64,000 nt of DNA from an uncultured Fodinibius sp. (GTDB taxonomy: Bacteria > Bacteroidota > Rhodothermia > Balneolales > Balneolaceae), in NCBI GenBank assembly GCA_913056455.1, contig CAJXMJ010000004.1, positions 1 to 64,000 on the forward strand, in the 5' to 3' direction. Position numbers and translations under genes: made by a program. The first letter of the stretch is position 1. Each line of letters begins with the position of its first letter. Below the pieces are notes generated by a model. The model did not search any database. It was given only the letters and a program-made list of their open reading frames with translations, and was not told where the DNA came from. Shown piece after piece: positions 4,806 to 43,485 of this stretch.

Positions 4806-5507
4806 TCAGGAATCTATTTGAAAATGTAATCCAATGGAAAAGAATAGTGGCTCGTAATCAAAAGTAACCTCATCCTGCAGCAATCTTGCAACTCCCAACT
4901 GCGATTCAACTTTAACATTTTTCCAACCTAATCTGGCAAATACAGCCGGCTCCAAAAATGTTCCGGACTCCGTTTCTCCCAAACTCATACCGGAAGTTTC
5001 AAACTCTGAAAAGGTCACCTGAGATAAACGTAATAGCAATCCTGTTTCAACGACTGAAGTTTCCAATCCAATATTTGTTTGAGCAAACACTTTGTTATAA
5101 CTGCCTTCCGCTCGTACCTCATTAGGACCAAAAACATCATACTGATCAACCGCTTCTGCTTTTCCTAACCCAATACCGCCAAGGGCTTCAAAGCGCCCGA
5201 TATCTCCGATAGGGTGAAAATATATTGCGCCAAATTCTCCATATCGATGCTTGTGGTAATCCTCTTCAGTGTCATTGGTTGTTTCATCAGTTTTAAACGA
5301 TGCAGATCCAAAGATACCGACATGATCAAACATCGAATAAGCTAATTGTATATCACCGCCGTTGGTACCGGCATGTGCGGCACCGTGTAGTTCCCCTTGT
5401 TCCTCCATCAGATTAGTTTGGCGGGCATTAGGTACATACACCGGTGCACAAGAAGCCAATATCACTATAGCAGCTAATAATAAAACTGAAAGTTTTACAT
5501 CCCACAT
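4806..5507 (-). CDS. Putative outer-membrane lipoprotein, unknown function
   Basis: A 233-residue predicted lipoprotein. The N-terminus (MWDVKLSVLLLAAIVILASC) is a type II signal peptide with lipobox LASC and the lipidated Cys at residue 20. The mature part is rich in Gly, aromatics and alternating beta-strand-like segments (for example VGIFGSASF, FEALGGIGLGKA, TGLLLRLSQV) and ends with an amphipathic aromatic strand, LFFSIGLHFQIDS. This suggests a small beta-barrel or beta-sandwich. I recognise no named family. The downstream DUF72 gene is 15 bases away. The cell location (outer membrane, periplasmic side) is inferred from the lipobox alone. Confidence 0.8.
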   Translation of the reverse strand: MWDVKLSVLLLAAIVILASCAPVYVPNARQTNLMEEQGELHGAAHAGTNGGDIQLAYSMFDHVGIFGSASFKTDETTNDTEEDYHKHRYGEFGAIYFHPIGDIGRFEALGGIGLGKAEAVDQYDVFGPNEVRAEGSYNKVFAQTNIGLETSVVETGLLLRLSQVTFSEFETSGMSLGETESGTFLEPAVFARLGWKNVKVESQLGVARLLQDEVTFDYEPLFFSIGLHFQIDS

Positions 5508-6743: not shown

Positions 6744-6757
6744 TGGTATAAAATAAT

Positions 6758-7540
6758 TTAACGATCAATCAGAGGAGAGTCTTTAAAAAAGCGTTTAAAC
6801 GTTCTAGTAGCTAAACTCTTTTGTACCTGTTTGCGCGGCTTGGTGAGCAGCTGCTTCTTTGTCATCCCATCGGGAAGTTTGCCTGTCATGATTACCTCGC
6901 TGTGCAAATCTTCTCCTTGAAAAATAATCTGGGTTTCATCCGCCCAAAGCTCATTATCATGTAAATACATACTCAAACGTTCAACCCGGAAGCAAAAATT
7001 GGAAAAGGTGAGCTCTTCATCAGATTTATTGACAATTTTTATCGGACAACTTACCAAATAAGGCTTTTTATCTACCTGGGATAAATCTCTGCGCGCTTTA
7101 GTCATAGCATGATAACAAAGCTCTCCTTCAGTAAATGTGCCAAACCAGGTACGCGAGAGCTTAGCAGTAGGCAATTCGATCAATTGATAATTATTGTTAG
7201 CCAGCGATATACGAACCCAAATAGGTATACGCGTAAATATTTGTATCCGGGTTTCAGAACTCACTTTTAAACTATATTCCGATTGAACAACAAGTGGTAG
7301 ATCGGGATAAACCGGCGAAACATTAACTTCAGGAGAACTATTTTTATGCGCCCAACGCGACCATTCCACATTTTTAGGAGGCTGATCGGACATAGCTTTT
7401 CGTTTTAGCTCATCTTTATACCCATGGGCAATCCAAACCTCTTCATTCCTATATTTCATCCACAGATGCAGATCCCCAATGGTAAAATATTCCACTTTGT
7501 TTTCTGCAAGCGATCTATTTCCCCAAATCTCGTGCTCCAT
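6758..7540 (-). CDS. DUF432 domain protein, partner of the MscS channel
   Basis: A 260-residue soluble protein I assign to DUF432 from its N-terminus (a first strand followed by VEYFTIGDLHLWMKYRNEEVWIA) and its position directly upstream of an mscS gene. It has no signal peptide or membrane helix and looks mostly beta-stranded, with a basic C-terminus (KPRKQVQKSLATRTFKRFF). The function of DUF432 is not known. The 14-base spacing to mscS and the recurring neighbourhood suggest an accessory or regulatory role for the channel. That role is inference. Confidence 0.8.
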   Translation of the reverse strand: MEHEIWGNRSLAENKVEYFTIGDLHLWMKYRNEEVWIAHGYKDELKRKAMSDQPPKNVEWSRWAHKNSSPEVNVSPVYPDLPLVVQSEYSLKVSSETRIQIFTRIPIWVRISLANNNYQLIELPTAKLSRTWFGTFTEGELCYHAMTKARRDLSQVDKKPYLVSCPIKIVNKSDEELTFSNFCFRVERLSMYLHDNELWADETQIIFQGEDLHSEVIMTGKLPDGMTKKQLLTKPRKQVQKSLATRTFKRFFKDSPLIDR

Positions 7541-7563
7541 ATATCACCGTCTTATTAAACATT

Positions 7564-8844
7564 TTATATTTCCGATGTGATAACATCTGTACCCATAAAC
7601 GGCTGTAAGACATCAGGAATTTTAATGCTACCATCTTCCTGCTGATAGATCTCCAAAATAGCTGCCACAACTCGGGGCAATGCCAGTCCCGATCCGTTGA
7701 GCGTATGCACAATTTCGGTATCTCCATTTTCTTTACGCCGACGAATCATCATTCGTCGTGCCTGGAAGCTCCCAAAATTAGAGCAAGAACTTACCTCCAG
7801 CCATTGCTGTTGGCCCGGACTCCATACCTCAAGATCGTACTTTTTAGATTGTGTAAAGCCCATATCTCCGGTACACATTAACAAGGTGCGATACGGGATA
7901 TCCAGCTCTTCCAGCAATGATTCAGCATGCTTTCGCAGACTTTCCAGCTCGTCATAGGCCGTTTCAGGATGAACAATCTTAACCAGTTCAACCTTGTCAA
8001 ACTGGTGCAGCCTATTTAAGCCCCGTACGTCTTTGCCGTATGATCCTGCCTCACGTCTCCAGCAAGGTGTATAGGAGGTATAATAAAGCGGAAGATCGTC
8101 ATCCTCTAAAATCTCATCACGGTGGAAATTTGTTACCGGGACCTCGGCCGTGGGAATTGCAAAAAACTCATCCCGGGGAATTTCATACATCATATCTTCT
8201 TTGTCGGGAATTTGTCCGGTACCCCGCGCCGAATCTTCATTTACAAAATAAGGCACCTGCAACTCGGTGTACCCAGCCTCAGCACCTCTATTCAAAAAGT
8301 AGTTAATCAGCGCACGCTGCAACCGTGCTAACGGACCTACATAAAAAGGAAAGCCCGCTCCCGTTACTTTGGCACCACGATCAAAATCAATCCAACCCTG
8401 CTCCTCGACCAGTTCCCAATGGGGCTTGCGCCAGTCTTCCTTATCAGGATCTCCCCACGTCTTAAACACCTCATTATCATTTTCGGTTTGTCCAACGGGT
8501 ACAGATTCATGCGGAACATTAGGTATTTTGAGCAACAGATCTTCACGGGCTCTTTTTAATGACCGCAGCTTATCTTCTTTTTCCTGAATCTGTTCCTTAA
8601 GCTCGGTGGTATAAGAAATAATTTCTTGAGCTTCCTCTTTTTTGCCCTGCCCCATTAACTCACCAATTTTCTTGGCTTTTGTGTTGCTTTCGTTGCGCAG
8701 GTTATCCGTTTCTTCCACCAGTGAACGCCACTGCTCATCAATACTGATGACTTCATCAACAATCTGGGGATTTTCCTCCCCCTTATTTTTCATAGCTTGC
8801 TTAACTAAATCAGGATTATTTCGGATATACGTGACGTCTAACAT
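7564..8844 (-). CDS. serS: Serine--tRNA ligase
   Basis: A 426-residue class II aminoacyl-tRNA synthetase charging tRNA-Ser (and the tRNA used for selenocysteine where present). The N-terminal coiled-coil arm (residues ~30-100, MLDVTYIRNNPDLVKQAM...) binds the tRNA long variable arm. Class II motif 1 lies near GFPFYVGPLARLQRALINYFL, motif 2 near YTSYTPCWRREAGSYGKDVRGL, motif 3 near TLNGSGLALPRVVAAILE. The length is standard. It is the first gene of a likely operon with DUF432 and mscS. I found no T-box leader in the 203-base spacer upstream. Confidence 0.97.
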   Translation of the reverse strand: MLDVTYIRNNPDLVKQAMKNKGEENPQIVDEVISIDEQWRSLVEETDNLRNESNTKAKKIGELMGQGKKEEAQEIISYTTELKEQIQEKEDKLRSLKRAREDLLLKIPNVPHESVPVGQTENDNEVFKTWGDPDKEDWRKPHWELVEEQGWIDFDRGAKVTGAGFPFYVGPLARLQRALINYFLNRGAEAGYTELQVPYFVNEDSARGTGQIPDKEDMMYEIPRDEFFAIPTAEVPVTNFHRDEILEDDDLPLYYTSYTPCWRREAGSYGKDVRGLNRLHQFDKVELVKIVHPETAYDELESLRKHAESLLEELDIPYRTLLMCTGDMGFTQSKKYDLEVWSPGQQQWLEVSSCSNFGSFQARRMMIRRRKENGDTEIVHTLNGSGLALPRVVAAILEIYQQEDGSIKIPDVLQPFMGTDVITSEI

Positions 8845-9047
8845 CGAGTAAATTCTTTAAAAATTTCGTTGGCAGTTTGGCTTAAGATAAGAGAGTTTAA
8901 CGAAAGGTTTGAACCCAAAATATTTGAAAAACCTTTTTCCTAAAATCATCAAAAACTCTTCAGCAACCCCACTCTAAAAGCTTGATATCCTAATTTATTT
9001 AGGCTATTTTCATAAAAAAATAGAAAATTAAGGACAAGTAAGATATT

Positions 9048-9524
9048 ATGGCTCAAGGATTAGATGAAATTGATATTAAAATATTAAACCATCTCCAAAA
9101 AGATGGGCGGTCACAGCGCAATAAACTGGCAGAAATTGTTCACCTGTCCGTTCCCTCTGTGTCAGAGAGAATGCGTAAGCTGGAAGAAAAGGAACTAATT
9201 AAAGGCTACACAGCACTTCTTGATTCCAAGAAATTTAAATTTGATATCACTGCTTTTGTGTTTGTGGAAGTAGACGGCTCAGATAATTATCCTATTTTTA
9301 TTGAAAATGCAGTGGCAGAACCGGAAATTCTGGAATGTCACTCTATAACCGGAGACGGATCACACATTTTAAAAATTCGAACTGAAAACACCTCATCGTT
9401 CGAACAGTTGCTCTCGAAAATTCAATCCTGGGATGGGGTTAGTAAAAGCCGATCAAATGTTGTTCTCAGTAGTTTTAAAGAAACTACTAAACTGCCTATT
9501 GAAAAGACCGTTGATCCCAAATAA
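9048..9524 (+). CDS. Lrp/AsnC family transcriptional regulator
   Basis: A 158-residue feast/famine regulator. An N-terminal winged helix-turn-helix occupies residues 5-60 (LDEIDIKILNHLQKDGRSQRNKLAEIVHLSVPSVSERMRKLEEKELIKGY, shown here only as landmarks), followed by a RAM/AsnC ligand-binding domain with the family strand ILECHSITGDGSHILKIR near residues 100-118. Such proteins form octamers that sense amino acids and control amino-acid metabolism. Its targets are unknown here. The 203-base spacer upstream, shared with divergent serS, contains a small CCTAA/TTAGG inverted repeat that could be an autoregulatory element. Downstream, an unrecognised gene follows after 18 bases, possibly co-transcribed. 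Confidence 0.93.
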   Translation: MAQGLDEIDIKILNHLQKDGRSQRNKLAEIVHLSVPSVSERMRKLEEKELIKGYTALLDSKKFKFDITAFVFVEVDGSDNYPIFIENAVAEPEILECHSITGDGSHILKIRTENTSSFEQLLSKIQSWDGVSKSRSNVVLSSFKETTKLPIEKTVDPK

Positions 9525-9542
9525 ATCTCTTTTCCCTGTACA

Positions 9543-11045
9543 TTGAAAAACGCTTGCTTACGTTATTTCTTCGTTTCGCTTTTATTACTCGGAGTCTCAC
9601 AAACTGAACTTTACGGTCAGACCAGACTGGGGGTAATTTGGGATACCCCCAATAATCCTGACTCAGCGAATGTACAGTTGCAACAATTTCACCAACTTGG
9701 CATCACGACCTTGGAAATAGATACTCCACCAGCACCTCAGGTGTGGAGTCAGATCGACAGTTTGGGATTCGGAGTGTATGGTAACTTGGGTATTAACTTT
9801 CCTCTTACCCACACTTTTGCCCATCCCGATTCCAGTCTCATTACCTATATCGAAAAAAACGTCACAAACTATCTCTCAAAGCCCTCAGTAAAGGCAATAG
9901 GACTATTTAATTACGGCAGTATATACGAACCTGCTTTTTGGCAAGCAGTTGTTTCATATGCTAATAATATAAAGCAGGCAAAGGAAATAGATTTATATCA
10001 CAAAAGTAGAACGACTCTCCCTACAGACAGCACTATCGTTGCATTCACAATTATTAACGTTCCGGTTACACCCGAAAACTTTAATTCACTATCTTTTTCA
10101 CCTACAGATACAAGCAACTATCTTTATTATGCTCCCTCAGATGAACTAAAACCTTTTTTAAGACCGTTCAAAAATTTTGTATCAGCAGTAAATCAATCTA
10201 AAAACAATACTATTTTTATAGAATCCGGATGGCTTCTTATGATGATTGAAAAGCATCCGGAATTTAAAAACGTACTCCAGAGCCTTTCTTCTGAGTCAGA
10301 ACTGGTTTTTCCTCTTCCTAATGAAACCGTTCCCGCACCCGACCATTCGGCCTTACCCATGGTCTTACTTTTGTTTATCTGGGGAACCGTAGCGCTACAC
10401 TATAATACGAGCCCATTGTACCGAAAATCGATATTTCGATATTTCACAGCACACAAGTTTTTTGTCGATGATATTTTCAAACGACTCATCCGGTCTCCGG
10501 TACCTGCTATTATTATCATTCTGCAAAATGCACTATTGTTATCAATATCCACATATGCCGTATTCTCGGCATTGTTAACTCCACTGGGGCAGGAAGCTTT
10601 TTTCTATCACTTTCCAGGGCTTTCGGTAGTCGGTAGCAGTCCGATATCAATTTTTATATGGACTTTGTTACTGGCATTGCTTTTTTCGCTTCTCTGTATA
10701 GTATGGCTCTATTTTAGTCACAAGCAAGTAAAATCAATCACACAGATAGCAACTATTTTTGCATGGCCGTTACAGCTAAATTTTCTCCTTTGTACCGGGA
10801 CAATAACTTTCTTCTCAGCATCAGAAACTGGAAGTGCTACTCTCTTTACAGCTCTGGCTCTGCTACTATTCTTACTAAGTTATACCTTTTCAGGACTGGA
10901 TATCAGTCGATTTGCAAGATCTAAAACCAAGCATCTGTTTAAAACAATTATTCCTTACGTGATATTAATTGCAGGATTTACTATATGGTTTTTTACTAAT
11001 GATCAGTGGATAGATATTCTAACCCTGACATTGAATCTCACATAA
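9543..11045 (+). CDS. Unrecognised secreted/polytopic protein (signal peptide, periplasmic domain, 6 TM)
   Basis: A 500-residue protein of no family I recognise. It begins with TTG at 9543 and a signal peptide (residues 1-25, cleavage near LYGQ). Residues 26-265 are predicted periplasmic, with beta-alpha segments such as FHQLGITTLEID, GFGVYGNLGINFP and VKAIGLFNYGSIYEP that recall a glycosidase-type TIM barrel. About six membrane helices follow (near 271-286, 319-345, 366-392, 399-425, 431-449, 468-484). The last 8 bases overlap rpoN on the opposite strand. It follows the Lrp-type gene by 18 bases. The barrel idea is a reading of pattern, not a domain match; the membrane half could relate to Bacteroidota six-TM families such as DUF4271, but I cannot confirm it. 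Confidence 0.8.
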   Translation: MKNACLRYFFVSLLLLGVSQTELYGQTRLGVIWDTPNNPDSANVQLQQFHQLGITTLEIDTPPAPQVWSQIDSLGFGVYGNLGINFPLTHTFAHPDSSLITYIEKNVTNYLSKPSVKAIGLFNYGSIYEPAFWQAVVSYANNIKQAKEIDLYHKSRTTLPTDSTIVAFTIINVPVTPENFNSLSFSPTDTSNYLYYAPSDELKPFLRPFKNFVSAVNQSKNNTIFIESGWLLMMIEKHPEFKNVLQSLSSESELVFPLPNETVPAPDHSALPMVLLLFIWGTVALHYNTSPLYRKSIFRYFTAHKFFVDDIFKRLIRSPVPAIIIILQNALLLSISTYAVFSALLTPLGQEAFFYHFPGLSVVGSSPISIFIWTLLLALLFSLLCIVWLYFSHKQVKSITQIATIFAWPLQLNFLLCTGTITFFSASETGSATLFTALALLLFLLSYTFSGLDISRFARSKTKHLFKTIIPYVILIAGFTIWFFTNDQWIDILTLTLNLT

Positions 11046-39154: not shown

Positions 39155-40435
39155 TCAGAGTTGATCCATCACAATTACTTTGACGGTCTCGATACGACTT
39201 GGCGTGGCTTTGCTAATAATAATTTTTTTTCCATCAATTAAAAGCTCTTCATTCACTTTGGGAATACGCCCCAATTCATTGATGATATACCCGGCTATCG
39301 TTTCATACTCCGTAGATTCCTCCGGCATATCAATCTCGGGAAATTGTTGGAGCAAATCTTCGATCTCGACTCCTCCACTCAAAATATAACTGTTGCCCGA
39401 TATCTTTTTCAGGATTCGATCTTCTGTATCATATTCGTCCTGAATATCTCCGACGACCTCTTCTAAAAGATCCTCGATGGTAATCATCCCGGCCGTACCT
39501 CCATATTCGTCGATAACGATGGCCACCGAAATATTGGAACTACGGAATTCTGAAAGCAGATCTTTCGACTTTTGTGACGCGGGAACTAACTTAATTGGAC
39601 GTATTATCTCAGACAAACTCTTGGGATTACTAAACAGGTCATAGGCAAAAATAACCCCAATAATATCATCGATAGATTCTTGGTAAACCGGTAGCTTTGA
39701 AAAACCCGATGAAATAAAAAGCTTTAGCGTTTCGTCGATACTGGCATTTTTTTCAACTGCTACAATATCAGTACGCGGTATCATCGATTCCTTCACGCGT
39801 TTATTCGAAAGCTCAAGCACATTGTGAAGGATTTCAGAATCATCTTTATCCAAATCATGCCCTCCGGAATCACGCAGCTCCTGAAATATCAGCTCTACAT
39901 CTTCTCGTCGAAACACTTTGCCCGAGCGATCCACATCCGGATTAATAAACTTAATAATCAAATCGGAAAATTTATCAGCTATAAAGATAAGAGGCTTAAA
40001 TAATTGATTGCATATTTTTTGAGGAATCGCAATTATCTTCATCCACCAGTCGGCATTTATGCGAAAAAGTGCCTTCGGAACTATCTCACCAAAAAGCATA
40101 ATCACGACGGAGGCAATCACCGTCTGAATTACCAACACCAACGCCTCGGAAGGCATTGTTCCCATCCAACCTTGATATATTTCGGTAATGGGACCTACCA
40201 GAAATATCGTCATCAAGGTAGCATACACTACATTTACTACATTATTGCCCACCAATGTAGTGGTTAAAAAGGTTTCCGGGTTATGGATAAAATCATTTAC
40301 TATACGGCCCGTCCATGAAGCTTTTCGGGATTCTATCTCCAGCTTTAACCTGTTAGAGCTGACAAAAGCTATCTCCGACCCTGAAAAAAATCCACTGAGA
40401 AGAATAGTTAATATAATGATAAGTATTTCAGTCAC
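39155..40435 (-). CDS. CNNM/CBS/CorC_HlyC membrane protein
   Basis: A 426-residue full-length member of the hemolysin-C/CorC family. CNNM (DUF21) with four helices (residues 1-190, beginning ILTILLSGFFSGSEIAFVSSNRLKLE), two CBS motifs (near 215-340: VKESMIPRTDIVAVEK, SVAIVIDEYGGTAGMITIEDLLEEVVGDIQDEYD region) and the C-terminal CorC_HlyC domain with a FAD-like fold (residues ~350-426). Family members influence magnesium/cobalt efflux and membrane integrity. It lies 24 bases upstream of the AAA gene and 104 bases downstream of the enoyl-CoA hydratase. Confidence 0.93.
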   Translation of the reverse strand: MTEILIIILTILLSGFFSGSEIAFVSSNRLKLEIESRKASWTGRIVNDFIHNPETFLTTTLVGNNVVNVVYATLMTIFLVGPITEIYQGWMGTMPSEALVLVIQTVIASVVIMLFGEIVPKALFRINADWWMKIIAIPQKICNQLFKPLIFIADKFSDLIIKFINPDVDRSGKVFRREDVELIFQELRDSGGHDLDKDDSEILHNVLELSNKRVKESMIPRTDIVAVEKNASIDETLKLFISSGFSKLPVYQESIDDIIGVIFAYDLFSNPKSLSEIIRPIKLVPASQKSKDLLSEFRSSNISVAIVIDEYGGTAGMITIEDLLEEVVGDIQDEYDTEDRILKKISGNSYILSGGVEIEDLLQQFPEIDMPEESTEYETIAGYIINELGRIPKVNEELLIDGKKIIISKATPSRIETVKVIVMDQL

Positions 40436-40539: not shown

Positions 40540-41316
40540 TTATTTTCCTTTAAACTCAGGTTTCCGTTTTTCGAGAAATGCGGACGTTCCTTCCATACAA
40601 TCTTCGGTTTCGCAGAGTTCACCAAACAGATCCGCTTCTACCTGGTAGCCCGAACGGTGATCAGAATGATAAACAGCCTTGATAGCATTTCGTATAGCAA
40701 TAGGGCCATTTTTCAAAATATTATTTAAAAGCTCTTTTGATGATTCAAATGGATCAGCACTTACTTCATTAACCAAACCAAGCTGGAGAGCCTCTTCTGC
40801 CTTCACCTGTTTACCGGTCAAAATCATTTCTAAGGCACGAGCTTTCCCTATCAAATCGGGAAGTCGTTGCGTACCGCCATATCCCGGTATCAATCCCAAT
40901 CCAACTTCAGGCAATCCAAAAACTGCATCTTCACCAGCAATACGTAAGTGGCACGCCATGGCCAACTCTGCACCACCACCTAAAGCATATCCGTTTACGG
41001 CAGCAATAACAGGCTTGCGGGTATCTTCAATAAGCTGAAAGATCTGCTGTCCCTTTTGAGAAGCCATTCGCCCCGACCGATCATCCAGCTCACGGAGCTC
41101 CTTGATATCAGCACCAGCCACAAAAGCCTTGTCACCAGCTCCCTTCACAATAACAGCATTGATTTCTTCGTCTATTTGAATAGCCTTAAACACATCGGCA
41201 AGCTCATTTAAAACCCCATCATTTAAGGCATTGAGTTTTTTGGGTCGATTGATAGTAACAGTGGATATTCCCCTGTCATCGGTTTCCAACGTAATAGTAC
41301 TAAACGATTCACTCAT
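40540..41316 (-). CDS. Enoyl-CoA hydratase/isomerase (crotonase family)
   Basis: A 258-residue crotonase. ATG 41316 (MSESFSTITLETDDRG) avoids the overlap with the upstream gene and gives the standard length; a longer frame adds 12 residues. Motifs: INRPKKLNALNDGVLNEL near residue 22, AFVAGADIKEL (oxyanion-hole Ala) near 60, VNGYALGGGAELAMACHLRIA near 100-120, FGLPEVGLGLIPGYGGTQRLP with the catalytic Glu pair region near 128-145, and SAFLEKRKPEFKG at the C-terminus. It hydrates 2-enoyl-CoAs in fatty-acid beta-oxidation or related paths. Its presence inside the PspA-type gene run is unexplained. Confidence 0.93.
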   Translation of the reverse strand: MSESFSTITLETDDRGISTVTINRPKKLNALNDGVLNELADVFKAIQIDEEINAVIVKGAGDKAFVAGADIKELRELDDRSGRMASQKGQQIFQLIEDTRKPVIAAVNGYALGGGAELAMACHLRIAGEDAVFGLPEVGLGLIPGYGGTQRLPDLIGKARALEMILTGKQVKAEEALQLGLVNEVSADPFESSKELLNNILKNGPIAIRNAIKAVYHSDHRSGYQVEADLFGELCETEDCMEGTSAFLEKRKPEFKGK

Positions 41317-41323
41317 AAATATT

Positions 41324-42220
41324 TTATCCCTTAACACGACTTGAGGAGTCAACCTTAGAGTCGGTTTCTTTTTCCTGTTTTAGTTCATCTTCGATTTCCA
41401 AAAAATCAGAATCTAAATCAATATCGTCAAGATCAGAATGAAAAGGCAAAATATCTCGATCCAGGTCATCAATCAACTGGGAGGTTTCCTCAACTTCCTC
41501 AAGAAGATTATCAAGCTGGAATCCAATTTCTTCAGGATTACTCATTGTCATAGATTGCTCATAAATGTATCGAATGGCATCTTCTATCGTTTCAAGATGC
41601 GTCTCACAAATCAGATACTTTTCTTTGGCTACCTCAAACTTTTTAAGGCGTTTCTTCAAAATACCTACGCGCCGAGCTGTAGTTCGCTTTAACCGTTCCG
41701 ACTCCATATTCTGCATCTCGCGTTCTTCTTTCTGGACCTCCTGTTTCAAACTTTCCTCTACCGAGGTATCCATATATAGTCGATATCGCTTATGCAGATC
41801 CAATAAGGTAAGATAATTCGAGAGAAGTTCTTCAATCTTATCTCTAATATTTTCCAATAAGCCTTGTGAACTGTATGGCAGCTTATCAAAATTTTCTTTA
41901 ATTAATTTTGCAAGGTGCTTCAACACCAAAAAGCGTTTCTGGCTTTTTTTATCGAGGTCCTGGAACGTAGATTTTTCCCTCGCAGCAGGGTTTTGTTCCC
42001 GCACCTTTTTCAACTTTATGTTTTTTCTAAAACGGGGCAGTCGCGGAACAATACCCAGATACATTAGCTCTACAGCAAATGTCATCGTCAGGACTAGGCT
42101 CGAAATAAGCCCCATACCACTCATCGCAAAAGCAGAAATAGCCGAAATTAGCAGTACTCCTAAATTAACAGGGTGTAAAAATGCTTCACGCGTAAAATTT
42201 ATGGTGTTATCATCACTCAT
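41324..42220 (-). CDS. Two-TM coiled-coil protein in the PspA cluster
   Basis: A 298-residue protein with no family I recognise, start ATG 42220 (MSDDNTINF; GTG two codons upstream is possible). Two adjacent hydrophobic helices (residues ~18-33 and 36-58: PVNLGVLLISAISAFAMSG and LISSLVLTMTFAVELMYLG) form a membrane hairpin, followed by a basic stretch PRFRKNIKLKK and a long charged coiled coil (about 75-240), ending in an acidic tail. It starts 5 bases after the half-PspA gene and ends 7 bases before the enoyl-CoA hydratase. It could anchor PspA-type filaments to the membrane. Confidence 0.85.
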   Translation of the reverse strand: MSDDNTINFTREAFLHPVNLGVLLISAISAFAMSGMGLISSLVLTMTFAVELMYLGIVPRLPRFRKNIKLKKVREQNPAAREKSTFQDLDKKSQKRFLVLKHLAKLIKENFDKLPYSSQGLLENIRDKIEELLSNYLTLLDLHKRYRLYMDTSVEESLKQEVQKEEREMQNMESERLKRTTARRVGILKKRLKKFEVAKEKYLICETHLETIEDAIRYIYEQSMTMSNPEEIGFQLDNLLEEVEETSQLIDDLDRDILPFHSDLDDIDLDSDFLEIEDELKQEKETDSKVDSSSRVKG

Positions 42221-42225
42221 AATCA

Positions 42226-42681
42226 CTACTCGTCTTCAAGTTCATTGCCAGGCTTGTCAGAAACTGCTGACGAATTCCTGCCAATTGTTTTATTTACCTG
42301 GATATTATTTGCCTGCTCTTCGATCTCATTATATAAGAGTCCCATTTCTAACTTGACTTGCCGCAGGGTATCTTTTGCTTTCGACTTCCTTATCTCTTCA
42401 TCCATTTCTTGCTGACTTATATTATCCTCACTTTCCTCTACAAGGCTGTCCATAGCCAAGTCAAGGCGAGCCTCGACTGAAGCCAACTTATGCTTCACCG
42501 AATAAAGAAAATCATCAAAAGAGTTCAGCATCTCTGTTTTATCCATATTTTTTAACGCACTGGCGATATTTTGCGTACGCTTGGCCCGTGATGCGCGTTC
42601 TTTTATCTCACGCATCTTGCGATAGTGCGCCTTGTATTCTTCTTTGAGGCGTTCCCGTTCACTTTTGCTATCGTTAGCCAT
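42226..42681 (-). CDS. Half-length PspA-like coiled-coil protein
   Basis: A 151-residue protein (start ATG 42681, MANDSKSERERL; the frame is open 5 codons more). It is almost wholly helical and aligns with the C-terminal half of the adjacent PspA protein: EARLDLAMDSL (70-80) against EARMELALDSI (181-191), IASALKNMDK (39-48) against IADALEQFET, and a following KLEMG/FKAEMG. It lacks the N-terminal amphipathic helix and the first hairpin of PspA. Its tail KTIG (131-134) matches KTIG at 252-255 of PspA. It lies between pspA (15 bases) and the two-TM gene (5 bases). It is likely a truncated duplicate acting with PspA, perhaps as a regulator of polymer length. Confidence 0.85.
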   Translation of the reverse strand: MANDSKSERERLKEEYKAHYRKMREIKERASRAKRTQNIASALKNMDKTEMLNSFDDFLYSVKHKLASVEARLDLAMDSLVEESEDNISQQEMDEEIRKSKAKDTLRQVKLEMGLLYNEIEEQANNIQVNKTIGRNSSAVSDKPGNELEDE

Positions 42682-42696
42682 GGTTAAAAGCCACAT

Positions 42697-43485
42697 TTAG
42701 GATTTAGATCGCTCTTTGTTCCCAATCGTTTTACCCTGTTGTTTCTCAGATGTTTGCTCATCAATTTCAATTTCTTCCTCATCGTCAGATGAACCTACAC
42801 TCTTTTCTTTTTCCGGGGCATCTACTTTACCCATTTCGGCCTTGAATTGCTCTACCAGCTCATGGGCACGCAGTTTTTCCGCATTAGCTTCGATCTCCAT
42901 CGTTTCTGTGTCGATGCTATCCAATGCCAGTTCCATACGAGCTTCATTCTTTGCGGTTTGCTCATTAAGCCGGTTAACCATTTCATCATGGGTCTGATCA
43001 AGTCCCCCGGTTTCAAATTGCTCTAGCGCATCGGCAATTTTACCCTGCCATTCAGCACGTTCACTGGCACGCATCGCTTCTTTTGCTTCTTGAATCTTGC
43101 GATCCTTTTCGCGCATAAATGCTTTTTTAACTTTGATCGCCTTTTCATAAGCCTGCTCAGCAAACTTTAACTGCTCTTTTGATGTCTCCAGATTCTCTTT
43201 GGCCTTCTCAAGCTGCATGGCATATCCTTCGGCGATATCGTCACGATCTGCCTGGATAGCAGATTTTATCTTAGCCGTTAAATCCTCAATCTTCTTCTCC
43301 AGCTTGTTCACCTCTTTCTGGAGCATAATTTTATTCGCCTTTACTGTGGCGATATTCTCATTCATCTGGGGAATCTGATCGTTTAAATCCCGAATATTCT
43401 GCTCCAGAATTAGTTTCGGGTCTTCCATTGAACTTACGAATCCACCAAATAGCGACTTGATTGCTCGAACGAATCTTTTAAACAT
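42697..43485 (-). CDS. pspA: PspA/IM30 family membrane-remodelling protein
   Basis: A 262-residue PspA/Vipp1 (IM30) family protein, a bacterial relative of ESCRT-III. The N-terminal amphipathic helix MFKRFVRAIKSLFGGFVSSM is followed by the family signature EDPKLILEQNIRDLNDQIPQM (20-40 region), a long coiled-coil hairpin (42-150), and helices to about 220 including EARMELALDS (181-190). The last 40 residues are a disordered acidic tail (GSSDDEEEIEID) ending KTIGNKERSKS. PspA forms rods and coats that stabilise damaged membranes. It heads the run of genes down to the AAA+ ATPase. No sigma-54 site is seen upstream, but two direct repeats are. Confidence 0.93.
   Translation of the reverse strand: MFKRFVRAIKSLFGGFVSSMEDPKLILEQNIRDLNDQIPQMNENIATVKANKIMLQKEVNKLEKKIEDLTAKIKSAIQADRDDIAEGYAMQLEKAKENLETSKEQLKFAEQAYEKAIKVKKAFMREKDRKIQEAKEAMRASERAEWQGKIADALEQFETGGLDQTHDEMVNRLNEQTAKNEARMELALDSIDTETMEIEANAEKLRAHELVEQFKAEMGKVDAPEKEKSVGSSDDEEEIEIDEQTSEKQQGKTIGNKERSKS

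Follow-up and report, generated by a model that had tools for sequence, protein, structure and literature searches.

What is encoded by a short open reading frame that stands head to tail with a full-length pspA gene, both on the minus strand, and what might a partial PspA subunit do beside a complete one? The locus that raises this question lies in a stretch of 64,000 nucleotides, hereafter the window. An earlier note on this DNA had claimed that the 151-residue product aligns with residues ~125–220 of the neighbouring PspA, that it lacks the N-terminal amphipathic helix and the hairpin of that protein, and that it could cap or tune PspA polymers. Coordinates are collected in Table 1; the short protein was taken to start at the ATG at 42681, which is common to close relatives, the listed reading frame beginning five codons earlier.

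Table 1 Features of the pspA locus and their positions in the window
Feature	Position	Strand	Evidence or description
Short PspA paralogue, 151 aa	42229..42681 (ORF 42226-42696)	minus	BLASTP, profile-profile comparison, AlphaFold2
PspA (PspA_IM30), 262 aa, full-length, including amphipathic helix and hairpin region	42700..43485 (ORF 42697-43485)	minus	Pfam E 4.1e-17
K-T-I-G tag of short protein, residues 131-134	42280..42291	minus	
K-T-I-G tag of PspA, residues 252-255	42721..42732	minus	
Second tag-like K-S-V-G in PspA tail, residues 228-231	42793..42804	minus	
Membrane protein: coiled coil preceded by two TM segments (by eye); without a Pfam family above threshold	41327..42226	minus	Next gene of the run
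Enoyl-CoA-hydratase-like gene (named by eye)	40543..41352	minus	Position and conservation in the run only
CorC/CNNM-like membrane protein (named by eye)	39158..40435	minus	Position and conservation in the run only
AAA+ ATPase, 570 aa	37421..39130	minus	N-terminal module without Walker A; C-terminal GPVGTGKT (321), AVMIDE (374), pore-loop-like WQG (352)

Pairwise BLASTP aligned residues 21–114 of the short protein with residues 129–219 of PspA (32/97 identities, E 5e-8). A profile-profile comparison built on 43 short proteins and 31 PspAs, which had been set beforehand as the test on which the proposed paralogy could fall, matched residues 18–118 to PspA residues 126–223 over 95 columns with a probability of 98.3% and an E-value of 1.5e-14. 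Control comparisons of the short profile gave 0.2% for the coiled-coil membrane protein encoded in this run of genes, 0.3% for reversed PspA and 0.1% for the AAA+ ATPase. Searching its own genome with the short sequence at E<=1 returned, besides the query, just the PspA next to it (E 0.0096) and no other coiled-coil protein. Moreover, a profile of the 43 short proteins matched all 138 PspA reading frames at E<1e-3 among the 8,462 reading frames of the fetched loci, and matched none of the same 8,462 at E<1 when they were reversed. The neighbour itself scores 63 bits against Pfam PF04012 (cut-off 33.9), and PspA of this class is collinear with solved Vipp1/IM30 PDB chains over residues 1–201. 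No PspA domain was matched in the short protein by Pfam at E<=10, a search in which HMMER filters drop most matches above 0.1; standard annotation would therefore call it hypothetical. Both proteins are α-helical and charged, and this, together with the failure of Pfam to join them, would be expected if they resembled each other by coiled-coil chance. However, the similarity is specific and collinear and the reversed and unrelated controls are negative, so we reject chance resemblance at the level of the profile comparison and give it practically no credence. These sequence comparisons establish the short protein as a genuine paralogue of PspA, corresponding to the C-terminal half of its neighbour, as the earlier note had proposed. 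A pseudogene or broken copy of pspA is ruled out, since the frame is open and conserved in 12/12 genomes of the genus and widely in the class.

The short form is thus fixed across the genus as far as it was searched. An initial search of 58 genomes gave matches in 51 at E<=0.01, six of them only through PspA, leaving 45/58 with the short gene; the 11 named relatives were Fodinibius, Aliifodinibius and Balneolaceae/Balneolales genomes and one MAG labelled Bacteroidetes. In a class-wide search, 225/244 genomes matched, with PspA cross-matches counted in. Among the 137 class genomes with a readable PspA tail, the short gene lies beside pspA in 113 and, in addition, in G186, where it is divergent and was missed by the profile; other absences may likewise be short genes elsewhere in the genome. 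Strong divergence has left the body of the short protein barely recognisable in G185 and G186, with the tail tag described below intact. When a sample of the phylum was searched with the short profile at E<=1e-7, 74/74 genomes of the class matched and 0/222 genomes outside it did, the number 222 being derived from the tally of the sample. PspA was sought in 79 of these 222 without a match, a weak negative given a query of uncertain reach beyond the class. The truncated PspA paralogue is known so far only from this class.

AlphaFold2, run with 12 sequences, places helices at residues 2–45, 48–86 and 91–126 of the short protein, followed by a low-confidence tail. Mean pLDDT is 76, and with a pTM of 0.30 the packing of the helices against each other cannot be relied on; pLDDT reaches 83–94 in 9 of the first 13 ten-residue blocks and falls below 50 from residue 133, from where we take the end to be disordered. 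The helices align with part of α3 and then with α4 and α5 of PspA, the last two being represented by helices 48–86 and 91–126 with aligned columns. The short model gave no match at E<=10 in a PDB fold comparison, and the short profile matched PDB chains with nothing better than E 0.1. Both absences claimed in the earlier note hold up. The hydrophobic moment (Eisenberg) of residues 2–19 is 0.18, against 0.65 for PspA, and the α1–α2 hairpin is missing from this protein of 151 residues, its homology to PspA beginning at PspA residue 126. In the excerpts of PMC8281802, the α1–α2 hairpin is described as a hallmark of Vipp1, PspA and ESCRT-III, and Vipp1 cut at residue 191, which removes α5 and α6, as failing to assemble. 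Carrying the role of α5 over to the short protein through the collinear PspA/Vipp1 alignment (PMC8281802, as excerpted), we suggest that it retains the polymer-forming α5, predicted to reach the hairpin tip of a neighbour, and would offer no hairpin to the next subunit. With α5 present and the hairpin absent, such a piece could bind the end of a filament without extending it. The 262-residue neighbour clearly belongs to the PspA/Vipp1 family (PF04012, the bacterial ESCRT-III branch); the short protein matches it from part of α3 through α5, and differs in having no α0, no α1–α2 hairpin and no Pfam PspA match. Because the hairpin is not found, we class the short protein as ESCRT-III-like rather than as a strict PspA.

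The motif K[TS][ILVM]G occurs in the charged, variable C-terminal tails of both PspA and the short protein; the PspA tail is probably disordered, judging by its composition. Counted as [KR][TS][ILVM]G, the tag occurs in 114/137 PspA tails, against 1.94 expected from tail shuffles. It is followed by 2–8 residues in 111 of the 114, and its second position, T or S by definition, holds T in 98 cases and S in 16. Of short proteins longer than 100 residues, 111/112 carry the tag; in the shuffle control, which covered residues 116 onward, 103/112 did so against 1.26 expected. Among the 58 reading frames of the window taken as genes, only PspA, the short protein and one other have it in their last 40 residues. 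G103, whose PspA tail is cut by a contig end, was left out of all tail counts, and the single short protein of 100 residues or fewer (G092, at a contig end) was left out of the counts of tags per short protein. The only short protein above 100 residues without a tag, at 5931-6359 of L058 (G045), ends in KTVF, and its profile match continues through the stop; this end may be a recent truncation. The additional KSVG, some 20 residues N-terminal to the KTIG of PspA, was seen in all 12 genus genomes of our table of loci (L032-L037, L082, L083, L192-L194) and in no other row.

At the level of the order, the short gene belongs to a conserved run of deoA, pspA, the short gene, the membrane-protein gene, the enoyl-CoA-hydratase-like gene, the CorC-like gene and the AAA+ gene. 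On the fetched stretches, 43/49 order loci contain the short gene and 39/49 the AAA+ gene; the ten without the latter are six loci of family f3, which also lack the short gene, and L038, L049, L057 and L068, some of the ten being truncated by the end of a contig or of the fetched stretch. In genomes outside the order, the AAA+ gene is found away from pspA, and none of the genes that we followed was found on the nine stretches fetched around it. Adjacency to the ATPase gene was abandoned as class-wide evidence, since the two are unlinked there.

The first start codon of the membrane-protein gene overlaps the stop of the short gene by 1 base. This gene was found in 135/138 class loci examined, the exceptions being G015 and two loci at contig ends, and it persists where the short gene and the ATPase are lost. 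Its product is a candidate membrane anchor of PspA, and is perhaps the protein termed Snf7, with a TM segment, in the excerpts of PMC11237479. Pfam gave no match to Snf7 (PF03357) in either the short or the membrane protein at E<=10, again with HMMER filters dropping most matches above 0.1. We also considered the membrane protein as a third relative of PspA, and the profile comparison (17%, E 0.0015) was too weak to claim this. It is unlikely to be the receptor of the tag, since it is retained where the tag is lost.

The ATPase of the run has, at residue 127 of its N-terminal module, a Walker-B-like strand that lacks the acidic pair, and a Walker A only at 321, with the Walker B at 374. We take its WQG segment to resemble the pore loop of Vps4, and presumably the protein is also similar to Ycf46. 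Among proteins of solved structure, VCP-like, CDC48 and p97 ATPases are closest in sequence. The predicted structure is poor (mean pLDDT 63); p97 and Rix7 match it across both modules, with TM-scores of 0.21–0.36 among the 50 matches listed. The protein thus looks p97-like over both modules, and the model is too poor to say more. No MIT domain was found on the ATPase among Pfam hits at E<=10, and no MIT-like helix bundle is seen in the low-confidence model, in which the N-terminal module is α/β. Outside the class, 1/222 genomes of the phylum sample matched the ATPase at E<=1e-50. This genome, G454, belongs to another class, and its protein is a distant relative (E 6e-126, profile positions 125–569). 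At its locus L205, a relative of the membrane protein (6752-7756; E 7e-17) is followed directly by the ATPase relative (7861-9705) and then by a further gene with no assigned family (9702-10412). No PspA was found in G454, and none of the three L205 proteins ends in the tag. The ATPase and the membrane protein may be an older pair to which PspA and the tag were added in this class; alternatively, the motor may have work besides PspA.

In raw counts, the presence of the tag follows that of the ATPase across the class. All 116 genomes with the ATPase have the tag on PspA or on the short protein, and 15/21 genomes without the ATPase have no tag, or 7/8 if only genomes at least 90% complete are counted. 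Divided further, 100 of the 137 genomes (here including G186) have the ATPase, a tagged PspA and the short gene. Eight (families f6 and f21, and two genomes of f3) have the ATPase and a tagged PspA with no short gene beside pspA, and another eight (f17, f14, f20, f7) have the ATPase and the short gene with the tag on the short protein only. Neither ATPase, tag nor short gene was found in 15 genomes (14 of f3, and G015). Because PspA keeps its tag in the eight ATPase genomes that lack the short gene, the tag tracks the ATPase and not the short gene; and because the 14 f3 genomes without ATPase, short gene and tag retain the membrane protein, the tag does not track the membrane protein either.

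The remaining six genomes have the short gene and tags, with no ATPase found. Five of them (G018, G019, G088, G158, G234) are 64–89% complete; the first 84 residues of the ATPase stand at a contig edge in G019, and 3.9 kb of contig beyond the enoyl-CoA-hydratase-like gene of G018 carries no CorC-like gene or ATPase. The sixth, G142 (L140), is 92% complete and has RTIG on PspA and KTIG on the short protein, with no ATPase at E<=1e-15; its assembly figures do not explain this. Incompleteness cuts both ways, since 5/6 exceptions and 8/15 supporting genomes fall below 90%, the supporting genomes of at least 90% being G015, G036, G039, G050, G052, G054 and G117.

A Fisher test on the raw table of tag and ATPase gives 1.4e-15, a value that ignores relatedness. 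On the PspA tree there are seven independent pairs that differ in the ATPase, and the PspA tag differs in the same way in two, in the opposite way in none and is unchanged in five, which is not significant; if the five incomplete genomes are left out, the figures are two, none and one of three pairs. The independent support for the link between tag and ATPase therefore amounts to two co-losses. G015 (98% complete) has no short gene and no tag, and its ATPase is a decayed remnant of 70 residues with two stops. The stretches concerned are 4846-5055 and 7272-7480 of its locus L176, where the PspA tail and the short and membrane-protein genes are gone. The loss of these last three seems to have been one deletion, so the loss of the tag there is not separate evidence, and the same could hold in f3. 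All five good-quality genomes of the class that gave no PspA match (G025, G026, G031, G053, G081) were negative for the ATPase and the short gene as well; a contig absent from the assembly might account for such a joint loss wherever the genes stand side by side. G025, G026 and G031, with G110 and G114, are small genomes (1.5–2.4 Mb) of one family, and in these five none of PspA, the short gene and the ATPase was matched.

The tags of the two proteins are also related to each other. Two copies of the tag stand on the short protein in 8/8 genomes in which PspA has lost its own, against 15/98 elsewhere (Fisher 1.6e-6); if only K is allowed at the first position, the figures are 5/8 and 14/98 (p 0.004). 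This pattern corresponds to about three changes on the tree, with one supported independent pair, and random pairings went the same way in 132/200 and showed no difference in 68. The simplest reading of this redundancy, which is suggestive, is that PspA and the short protein take part in one assembly that needs enough tags.

We propose that the short protein co-assembles with PspA and that the K[TS][ILVM]G tag is a handle by which the AAA+ motor extracts subunits, a reading that we hold tentatively, at a little short of even confidence. PspA and the half-PspA would form a mixed polymer on stressed membrane, into which the short protein would insert its α4–α5 half, with α5 docking on the tip of a PspA hairpin. 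Since it offers no hairpin in return, it would sit at filament ends or on the outside, and so would end or decorate the polymer. The ATPase, presumably a hexamer with an inactive N-terminal module, would grip the tags on the flexible tails and pull subunits out, disassembling the polymer; the short protein would then alter both the number of handles per polymer and the point at which polymerisation stops. Taken as a whole, this would be an ESCRT-III/Vps4-like cycle of the class's own, in which a composite polymer of full and half PspA carries, on either subunit, a tag that acts as the loading code of the motor. We consider that fuller scheme possible, and would sooner expect some part of it to fail than all of it to hold.

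Capping or tuning of PspA polymers, as suggested in the earlier note, remains plausible from the sequence. We regard an adaptor or client of a remodelling motor as at least as likely as a passive cap, because of the shared tail tag and its link to the ATPase. A purely passive cap or length regulator would bind filament ends through α5 and stop growth, the tag serving some other end. The presence of α4–α5 without a hairpin suits such a role, as do the need for α5 in Vipp1 assembly (PMC8281802, as excerpted) and the position of the short gene, which adjoins pspA wherever it was found, many loci having been fetched through pspA. Nevertheless, a passive cap accounts neither for the tag common to both proteins nor for the redundancy of that tag and its link to the ATPase, and no short gene adjoins pspA in families f6 and f21 and in two genomes of f3; we judge it improbable. 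The short protein might also stand outside polymer biology, as an adaptor between the ATPase and a cargo independent of PspA, its likeness to PspA being a matter of ancestry. Its family is far more divergent than PspA (mean column identity 37% vs 69%) and has a conserved N-terminal motif of its own (K13, K17, H19), and in G185 and G186 the tag has outlasted a diverged body. The adjacency to pspA and the redundancy of tags with PspA speak against such a cargo adaptor, which we think has a smaller chance still of being correct.

The tag, in turn, might be recognised by some partner other than this ATPase, such as a protein kinase, a protease or an unseen receptor. The T or S at its second position could be a phosphosite, the correlation with the ATPase comes down to two co-losses, and the distant relative of the ATPase in G454 exists without PspA and tag. 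However, among the genes that we followed only the ATPase tracks the tag, and the membrane protein is made a poor receptor by being kept where the tag is lost. We consider another partner unlikely, though less so than the passive cap or the cargo adaptor.

Our preferred reading, a half-PspA that co-assembles with PspA and is handled by the motor through the tag, has parallels in known systems. Vps4 pulls on ESCRT-III through MIM tails. There, as here, polymer subunits with C-terminal linear motifs are paired with an AAA+ partner, and the combination of half-PspA, tag and motor recalls this membrane-remodelling pair, hinting at a bacterial version of it. To our knowledge, K[TS][ILVM]G is not a MIM. 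The ATPase differs from Vps4 in being two-module and CDC48-like, and because no MIT domain was found we do not call it a Vps4 system. CBH24266 is, we assume, a Salinibacter protein, and hence of this class. The triad of PspA, Snf7 and a coiled-coil protein reported from Bacteroidetes (PMC11237479) is probably the same type of locus as ours; the excerpts of that paper give no half-PspA architecture, tail motif, class-wide fixation or covariation with an ATPase. They do describe some pspA genes adjoining a gene for a protein with two AAA+ domains, the N-terminal copy inactive, and our ATPase, with a Walker A only in its second module, fits that description. ATP-dependent remodelling comparable to that by Snf7 and VPS4 was already proposed there from gene neighbourhoods. 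That argument, as excerpted, is one of neighbourhood, whereas here a candidate tag on two subunits tracks the ATPase even where the genes lie apart. Cyanobacterial tandem PspA/Vipp1 paralogues (PMC11237479, as excerpted) are likewise adjacent genes of the PspA family; they consist of a PspA-like and a Vipp1-like copy, whereas one partner here is a C-terminal half only. In the literature searched, including the excerpts of PMC11237479, we found no half-PspA architecture, tail tag, tag redundancy or link between tag and ATPase.

According to the excerpts of PMC8281802, it is unclear whether PspF takes the role of Vps4 in the PspA system, or whether an equivalent ATPase assists Vipp1. The class supplies material for this question: an ATPase as candidate motor, a putative recognition tag shared by two subunits, natural losses for comparison, and a half-subunit as a possible cap or adaptor. 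If our reading is true, the tag would play in these bacteria the part that the MIM code plays for Vps4, using a motif and a type of ATPase of its own.

Finally, residues 9–21 of the short protein form a conserved RERLKEEYKxHYR-like stretch, within which K13, K17 and H19 are invariant in the 43 short sequences. This stretch has no counterpart in the aligned part of PspA and is perhaps a candidate site for a further partner.
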